DNA from: Microcoleus sp. GA_180221_E-2-1-MAG-45_12
Lineage (GTDB): Bacteria; Cyanobacteriota; Cyanobacteriia; Cyanobacteriales; JAAUUE01
Length of the DNA stretch: 42,688 nt
NCBI GenBank assembly: GCA_020692245.1
Contig: JAIMKT010000015.1
Coordinates: forward strand, 304 to 42,991
Direction: 5' to 3'
Shown here: positions 19,765 to 21,480 of the stretch, in pieces
Layout: each line of letters begins with the position of its first letter
Position numbering within the stretch: the stretch's first letter is position 1
Position numbers and translations under genes: made by a program
Notes under the pieces: generated by a model
The model's input: the letters and a program-made list of their open reading frames with translations, nothing else
Databases searched by the model: none
What the model was told of the DNA's origin: nothing

Positions 19765-19800
19765 ACTCCGTATCAGGTATATAGCAACCTGACCCGGAGT
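19765..19800 (+). promoter_or_regulatory. Hairpin that encloses the patX Shine-Dalgarno sequence
   Basis: ACTCCG (19765-19770) pairs with CGGAGT (19795-19800). After a symmetric two-base mismatch (TA against CC), TCAGGT (19773-19778) pairs with ACCTGA (19787-19792), leaving an 8-base loop ATATAGCA. Twelve base pairs form in two perfect blocks. The outer 3' arm contains GGAG (19796-19799), which sits six bases before the ATG at 19806 and is the only credible ribosome binding site. If transcribed, the stem would hide it. It could instead act in DNA as an operator. Confidence 0.75.
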
Positions 19801-19805
19801 AAATT

Positions 19806-20015
19806 ATGCGTACCTATACCTCTATCATTTTGTTGGCTCTAGTTTCAAGTTCCTTGGCAATTTTTTCTGCCCAATCTCCTACTGCCCAAACTAGCAAAAT
19901 TTCTGGAGAATTAGTCTCAATTCAAATTGAGCAACAGGGAGATAAGGCTCCCCACCGGGGTAGCGGTCGTCGTCAGTTCTTCCAATCGCAGACCTATAAA
20001 GCCACAAACATTTAG
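19806..20015 (+). CDS. patX: PatX-type secreted RGSGR peptide precursor
   Basis: A 69-residue protein with an N-terminal signal sequence (RTYTSIILLALVSSSLAIFSAQS; hydrophobic core about residues 6-20, cleavage likely after the AQS/AQT region). The C-terminal half contains HRGSGR at residues 50-55 (codons 19953-19970), followed by RQFF. RGSGR is the active pentapeptide of PatS, and HRGSGR within a short exported protein is the hallmark of the PatX family. That family is associated with HetR in filamentous cyanobacteria. Processed peptide is thought to be imported or transferred between cells and to bind HetR, promoting its turnover and loss of DNA binding. The gene has its own hairpin leader and terminator, and hetR follows 565 bp later. 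The call is strong because motif, signal and neighbour agree. Confidence 0.9.
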   Translation: MRTYTSIILLALVSSSLAIFSAQSPTAQTSKISGELVSIQIEQQGDKAPHRGSGRRQFFQSQTYKATNI

Positions 20016-20043
20016 CTTTTAACTAGCACTCAAAAACTAAATT

Positions 20044-20064
20044 CCACCCTTGAGGTGGTTTTTT
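20044..20064 (+). terminator. Rho-independent terminator of patX
   Basis: CCACC (20044-20048) pairs with GGTGG (20054-20058) across the loop CTTGA and is followed by six T residues. It lies 29 bp after the patX stop and separates patX from hetR transcriptionally. Confidence 0.85.
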
Positions 20065-20580
20065 CATAGCAATTTTTTTAGCCCTTTTTAAGAAGTCTTG
20101 AGCAGTTTAGAGAATAACTTCCGACTATCGGCGTATTTTTTTGCAGGTTTTTGATAAATCTTCGGTAAAATTTGGTTTAGAGTAAGGGGTGTGTCACCAA
20201 AAAAAGTAGGAATACCTGTGGATAACTACTAGATAATCTAGATAATCAAGTTTATGCCAAAGGTAAACTACTACAGATGTCAACTGACTAATAATTCCTG
20301 TTAATATCATTGATACTATTACTTAGGACTATAGCGATCCTCATTACGTTCATAAGAATGCTTGCTTCCCATCGTTAATTAGGGTAATTTATGAATTTCT
20401 CCTGCTCACGAACCATTGAGGATTGCGATGTAAGTTAATGATATTAGTGTTATTAGCCATCACTAGAGATTCCCCTAGGAGATGACTGGCAAAAACAACT
20501 TTCAAGATTTACTGTAAAAGCCAACAAGCAGTATCAAATAGACAGTGCCAAATAAAAGTAAATAATCGAACTATCCCCTC
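20065..20580. other. hetR upstream non-coding region
   Basis: This is 516 AT-rich bases without a reading frame of more than about 16 codons. TGTGGATAA, a consensus DnaA-box sequence, is at about 20217, and a short direct repeat of CTAGATAAT follows (20228-20246). I find no NtcA box (GTA-N8-TAC). The length suggests a complex hetR promoter or a long 5' leader. No terminator or structured RNA is evident apart from the patX terminator just before it. Confidence 0.45.
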
Positions 20581-21480
20581 ATGATTACTCAGGATTTACA
20601 CCTTTTTCAGACTCTTAGCCCTAGTGCCATGGATCAGATCATGCTTTACCTAGCCTTCATTGCCATGAGGACTAGTGGTCATCGGCATGGTGCATTTCTG
20701 GATGCTGCCGCCACCGCCGCCAAATGTGCTATCTACATGACCTACATGGAGCAAGACCAGAACATCCGGCACACTGGGCATCTCCACCACATAGAGCCAA
20801 AACGGGTAAAGGTAATTGTGGAGGAGGTGAAAGAAGCTCTGGCAACGGGTAAGTTGCTGAAAATGTTTGGGGCGCAGGAGCCTAGATATTTAATTGAATT
20901 TCCTTACGTTTGGTTAGAGCAGTTTCCTTGGCAACCGGGGGAGCCGAGAATTCATAATACAAATTTGCCGATCGAGTACAAGCGAGATATCGAAGCCAAA
21001 CTCCCCCCAGAAATTCCCCAAGCGCAGGTAATTAGCTCCTTTCAATTTTTAGAACTAATCGAGTTTCTCTACAATCGATCGCAGCAGTACGTTCCAGACG
21101 ATCGGCGGGTATCCCTGAGCGAAGCATTTACAGAACACATCAAGCGCCGTTTGATCTACTCTGGCACCGTGAGCCGCATTGATTGCCCTTGGGGTCTGCC
21201 CTTTTATGTTTTGAATCGTCCCTACTACGCCCCTGTCGAAGAAGAGGAACGTACCTACACCATGATTGAAGATACCGCCCGCTATTTTCGTCTCATGCGG
21301 GACTGGGCTGATCAACAACCAAAGGTGATGCGGGTGCTAGAAGAATTGGATGTAGCTCCAGACCAAATGGAAACTGCCCAAGCAGAATTAGACCAAGTTA
21401 TCCGAGCCTGGGCTGATAAATATCACCAACCGGGGGGACAGACGATGGTACTCCAAATGGTGTTTGGGGAAAAGGATTAA
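20581..21480 (+). CDS. hetR: Heterocyst differentiation master regulator HetR
   Basis: A 299-residue protein, exactly the family length. The N-terminal DNA-binding block is nearly invariant ([52 protein letters not shown]). Numbering runs one ahead of the Anabaena protein as I remember it. Cys49 corresponds to Cys48, Ser180 to Ser179, and Glu254/Glu255/Asp257 in the EELD loop to the acidic residues reported to bind the RGSGR peptide. All are kept. HetR is a dimeric transcription factor that triggers heterocyst formation; in non-heterocystous filamentous species its role is less clear. No Shine-Dalgarno precedes the ATG. Its proximity to patX and the conserved peptide-binding loop point to a working signalling pair. 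Confidence 0.97.

Follow-up and report, generated by a model that had tools for sequence, protein, structure and literature searches.

The patX leader in the Microcoleus genome studied here carries an imperfect inverted repeat, or dyad, which lies over the predicted −10 element and transcription start of the gene. The pattern occurs once in this genome, recurs in the patX leaders of many other non-heterocystous filaments and is absent from patX leaders of the heterocyst type. The patX–hetR pair itself is not new, being known from the literature as a module that nearly all filamentous cyanobacteria carry; the dyad is the new point here. On the sequence evidence we give even chances to the proposal as a whole, in which an ancestral patX–hetR module would have a DIF1-like patX promoter and the dyad would serve as a dedicated feedback operator of patX. 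The pair lies in the middle part of the window (the whole stretch of DNA that was analysed, 42,688 nucleotides) and comprises the following features.

19806..20015, forward strand: patX, 69 residues, ATG start; matches NCBIfam NF047413; hydrophobic N-terminal stretch; HRGSGR at residues 50–55
20044..20066, forward strand: terminator-like hairpin and T-run after patX, CCACC-CTTGA-GGTGG-TTTTTT (hairpin 20044–20058); also in the same-genus locus L002
20581..21480, forward strand: hetR, complete, 299 residues; matches NF009718; both Pfam domains; PDB relatives; LEELD loop at 253–257

The preliminary description had recognized a 69-residue reading frame with a signal-like N-terminus and HRGSGR at residues 50–55, next to a complete HetR with the acidic loop Glu254/Glu255/Asp257 kept, and had noted the known PatX–HetR association. 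Both identifications and the association are borne out by the family models, the coordinates and the published module. PatX matches the curated PatX family NF047413 with 36 bits (cut-off 30) over residues 1–57, and its likeness to PatX therefore extends outside the pentapeptide. In alignments it is 32–50% identical to PatX proteins of other lineages and 87% identical to a same-genus copy, so the lack of similarity outside RGSGR that had been named as a possible refutation was not found. The hydrophobic stretch was judged by hydropathy only (mean Kyte–Doolittle value of 2.0 over residues 5–21). Small reading frames with RG[ST]GR appeared in none of 100 dinucleotide-shuffled windows. The protein resembles PatX of Nostoc PCC 7120 and its relatives in its small size, its hydrophobic N-terminus and the presence of HRG(S/T)GR towards the C-terminus. 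It differs from that of PCC 7120 in its pentapeptide (RGSGR rather than RGTGR), and its gene differs in having the dyad in its leader, in lacking an NtcA-type site and in lying 565 bp upstream of hetR.

HetR scores 527 bits against NF009718 (cut-off 489), contains the Pfam domains Peptidase_S48 and HetR_C, and matches HetR in the PDB with E=1e-144 (structural relatives 3qod, 4hri, 4yrv and 4ynl). Its LEELDV loop begins at residue 253, which places the acidic residues at E254, E255 and D257. The full length, the two domains and the LEELD loop are thus shared with known HetR proteins; the setting is unlike that of heterocyst-type HetR, in that neither NifD nor the HetP family has a match over cut-off in the host genome. 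The genome holds a single HetR copy, and a search of the plasmid collection gave no match to hetR.

Elhai & Khudyakov (2018), according to PMC7761841 and PMC11298460, described PatX–HetR as coextensive with the filamentous cyanobacteria, whether or not these form heterocysts. Among 79 HetR loci from public genomes, about fifty RG[ST]GR reading frames precede hetR in the same orientation, usually at a distance of 0.25–2.5 kb; the nearest relative in this set is Coleofasciculaceae cyanobacterium SM2_1_6, with a HetR that is 98% identical. A single patX–hetR operon is unsupported by the sequence here, where the terminator-like hairpin and the 565-bp gap intervene. Such a hairpin separates the two genes in eight of 59 entries, most relatives having none. 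The closest published parallel in setting is Leptolyngbya BL0902 (PMC11298460), which is likewise non-heterocystous and nif-free, has hetZ and a predicted DIF1 promoter, and carries patX directly upstream of hetR. In BL0902, however, the pair is apparently co-transcribed, as inferred in that study, whereas a terminator-like hairpin stands between the genes here, and there are three hetR-like reading frames rather than one.

The leader of patX contains the following elements.

19747..19753, forward strand: DIF1-like −35 element of the patX promoter, TCCCGAT, located from aligned leaders; promoter use predicted
19766..19778, forward strand: left dyad arm, CTCCGTATCAGGT, conserved among the patX leaders of non-heterocystous strains; holds a −10 element, TATCAG (19771–19776), predicted from its spacing to the −35 element
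19779..19786, forward strand: spacer of the dyad, atatagca, with the transcription start predicted from the alignment (TAGA in relatives)
19787..19799, forward strand: right arm of the dyad, ACCTGACCCGGAG, overlapping a likely Shine–Dalgarno sequence, GGAG, just before the ATG

The window dyad, CTCCGTATCAGGT-atatagca-ACCTGACCCGGAG at 19766–19799, has arms that are complementary at 11 of 13 positions. Alignment of 36 non-redundant patX leaders gave the consensus TCCTGAT-N13/14-TCCGTATCAGG-N-TAGA-N-CCTGACACGGA-N7..11-ATG, and the general form of the dyad is TCCGTATCAGG-N8..14-CCTGACACGGA, ending 7–11 nt before the ATG. The published layout of DIF1 promoters consists of a −35 element, about 17 bp and an extended −10 element (PMC6133370; PMC7377430). 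By this layout TCCTGA would be the −35 element, TATCAG the −10 element and TAGA the start region; the window has TCCCGA, one difference from the DIF1 sequence TCCGGA, at the homologous place. The leaders share with the DIF1 (DIF+) promoters of Nostoc and Anabaena a TCC-x-GA sequence that is correctly spaced from a −10-like sequence, but read TCCTGAT or TCCCGAT where those promoters read TCCGGA, and have a dyad over the −10 element and start (PMC6133370; PMC7377430). The DIF1-type promoter is HetZ-dependent in Anabaena (PMC7377430), and the presence of HetZ in the genome fits a promoter of this type: one protein exceeds the cut-off (600.8 bits versus 550; L193), alongside two relatives, one HetZ-related and one HetZ-related 2. 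Neither GTAN8TAC, the NtcA-type site, nor the HetR site GGGN5CCC was found in 19530–20580, which covers the sequence upstream of both patX and hetR. Control of patX by NtcA as in heterocyst formers was accordingly rejected, as was a GGGN5CCC-type HetR site in the patX leader.

The dyad is specific to patX wherever it was found. In the order, 17 of 196 genomes contain the pattern, each at a single place, while the reversed pattern, used as a control, occurs in none of the 196. All 17 places lie just upstream of a PatX-type reading frame, 13 with RG[ST]GR and four with a degenerate pentapeptide, and hetR falls inside the 3-kb locus at 12 of them. At the four degenerate loci (L083, L088, L089 and L090) the dyad and the N-terminus are intact, hetR adjoins and the pentapeptide is replaced by sequences such as EPGSKR, KGTGR and RGTSR, possibly through drift or a changed peptide code. 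A second search required the −35 element, the left arm, TANA and the ATG, and left the right arm unasked to avoid choosing the result. It matched 55 of 391 genomes, and the right arm proved to be present in almost all of these; its reversed controls gave no matches among the 391; the match in G052 looks like chance.

Two kinds of variation accompany the dyad leaders. Tandem patX copies, each with its own dyad leader and the second with partly changed arms, occur in Microcoleus-like genomes (L029, L055, G001, G179, G166 and G695). At L094–L099 the reading frame after the dyad encodes a PatX with two to four RGSGR copies per precursor, which suggests that several peptides may be made from each PatX molecule.

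The heterocyst-type leaders compared were those of Nostocales (Nostoc and Calothrix; L162, L164, L175, L176 and L183) and of further loci with the same patX type, all from one family (L195–L208, L211 and L212). The dyad is absent from all of these; they have TCCGGA upstream and, in most cases, also GTAN8TAC near −91. A single match at L208 was due to a loosely written pattern and does not represent the dyad. TCCGGA without the dyad also occurs in the non-heterocystous lineages L016, L021 and L033, so the dyad is common but not universal outside heterocyst formers. The genomes behind four loci (L213, L214, L222 and L223) combine two types of patX, of which one has TCCGGA but lacks the dyad and the other has a dyad-like leader. 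Within the open-access literature the left-arm sequence had only unrelated matches and occurred in no cyanobacterial paper; the study of patX promoters by Elhai & Khudyakov (2018), which lies outside that literature, may show the dyad.

The placement of the dyad can also be read without any regulator, as the shape of a specialized core promoter with a DIF1-like −35 and an extended −10 element, the right arm being an element of the 5′-UTR or of the early-transcribed region that is under selection for something else. The left arm does coincide with the expected −10 element at DIF1 spacing, and its distance to TAGA is nearly fixed while the right arm floats. The right arm nevertheless mirrors the left over 10–11 nt and was recovered even when unasked, and the heterocyst-type DIF1 patX promoters lack it, which makes this explanation quite unlikely in our view.

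A further alternative is that the dyad acts as RNA. Read-through transcripts would fold and hide the ribosome-binding site, those starting inside the dyad would be translated, and stray production of the inhibitor peptide would thereby be prevented. Phage T4 has genes whose late promoter sits inside such a hairpin. The window leader folds with −18.4 kcal/mol (z −3.2) with GGAG paired, and the spacer varies in length like a hairpin loop. The innermost pair covaries between G–C, T–A and A–T and is Watson–Crick in 31 of 50 distinct sites, compared with 15.7 in shuffles. The pair type is mostly one per clade, however, so that the changes represent few independent events; pair 2 is altered on both sides in two lineages (L151 and L222). 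Pair 5 is a conserved A–C mismatch in 32 of the 50 sites, and G–U mismatches (21) show no clear excess over A–C mismatches (15), neither of which points to RNA pairing. In addition, the left arm shows the sequence conservation expected of a promoter, a good Shine–Dalgarno sequence in the right arm is peculiar to this genus, and no Rfam family matched the leader. As a general feature, a hairpin hiding the Shine–Dalgarno sequence was rejected, since GGAG is genus-specific and other leaders have CGGA. We therefore regard a role as RNA as rather unlikely, and on the sequence patterns a role as DNA is moderately favoured over it.

As DNA, the dyad would most likely act as an operator for patX alone. 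In the mechanism proposed here, patX would have a promoter of its own, DIF1-like and probably dependent on HetZ, and one of the circuit's own products (HetR, HetZ or a relative of HetZ) would bind the dyad, which covers the predicted −10 element and start site. PatX would be exported by means of its signal sequence and processed to a peptide of the HRGSGR type, which would reach HetR and inhibit its binding to DNA, as shown in Nostoc. The output of patX would then be set by feedback and not, as in heterocyst formers, by nitrogen status through NtcA. Two features of the dyad argue against an operator: the distance between the 10-nt arms ranges over 10–14 nt, an unusual degree of variation for an operator bound by a rigid dimer, and the sequence is unlike the known Anabaena HetR site GGGN5CCC.

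The gene content, obtained from single family and pattern searches of a 4.2-Mb genome that is 95% complete, indicates that the host does not form heterocysts. No NifD match over cut-off was found in this genome; the one weak match (35 bits versus a cut-off of 653.55) is presumably typical of protochlorophyllide-reductase-type relatives. The HetP family had no match in the same genome. The genome also contains no second start-bearing small reading frame with [HQDE]RG[ST]GR that would be a PatS or HetN candidate, the other coding stretches with this motif having no start codon before it or lying in a DnaK-like frame. PatX is therefore the only candidate HetR-inhibitor peptide of this type found. 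These searches covered nif (through NifD), hetP, patS and hetN, the genes for which a genome check had been proposed earlier. It had also been stated that nothing else in the window concerns heterocysts, and the remainder is indeed mostly housekeeping. One qualification is needed for the first of the following two features.

34..1836, forward strand: TPR-CHAT protein, entering from the left end of the window; no HetF model matched
12217..14227, forward strand: divergent cbb3-like oxidase pair with COX1 and FixO/CcoO domains; scores far under the ccoN and ccoO model cut-offs

The CHAT domain takes its name from HetF. Nothing ties the reading frame at 34–1836 specifically to that protein, CHAT-TPR proteins being common in cyanobacteria. 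The cbb3-like pair is perhaps a variant oxidase.

The role of PatX and HetR in heterocyst-free filaments has been termed a mystery (PMC11298460). The suggestion in the preliminary description that the pair controls another cell-fate decision along the filament is a guess, and the idea is not new, because a pre-heterocyst role in necridia or filament fragmentation has already been proposed (PMC7761841; PMC12756182). The only published genetic test that we found in a non-heterocystous strain is that of BL0902, in which patX, hetR and double knockouts were compared and the effects of PatX looked mostly HetR-independent (PMC11298460). This argues against a simple PatX–HetR loop. PatX might instead be a HetR-independent signal whose adjacency to hetR is inherited synteny, which would be compatible with any function of the dyad. 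In the informative gene groups of the BL0902 transcriptomes, the double mutant behaved much like the patX mutant (PMC11298460). We nevertheless consider HetR independence doubtful here, given that the peptide-binding loop is kept in this HetR, that the module is reported to be coextensive with HetR (PMC7761841) and that in Nostoc, where PatX is exported and cleaved by PatP, its hexapeptide HRGTGR binds HetR at 88 nM (PMC12756182). With the dyad taken as an operator, the likely circuit would combine HetZ-dependent transcription of patX, feedback via the dyad and inhibition of HetR by the peptide, the last step being modelled on Nostoc.

A wider evolutionary proposal follows the distribution of the dyad. 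Non-heterocystous filaments may have an operator not described before that serves patX only and ties it to the HetR/HetZ circuit, and heterocyst formers may have lost the dyad and placed patX under NtcA; this is possible, although on balance we lean against it. The dyad, being short, patX-specific and shared by dozens of non-heterocystous genomes, could be used as bait for its regulator, and mapping its contrast with the NtcA site on a tree could locate the switch to nitrogen control. If the proposal is true, the loss of the dyad and the gain of NtcA control would mark the regulatory step at which nitrogen-controlled heterocysts took over an older circuit for patterning the filament.
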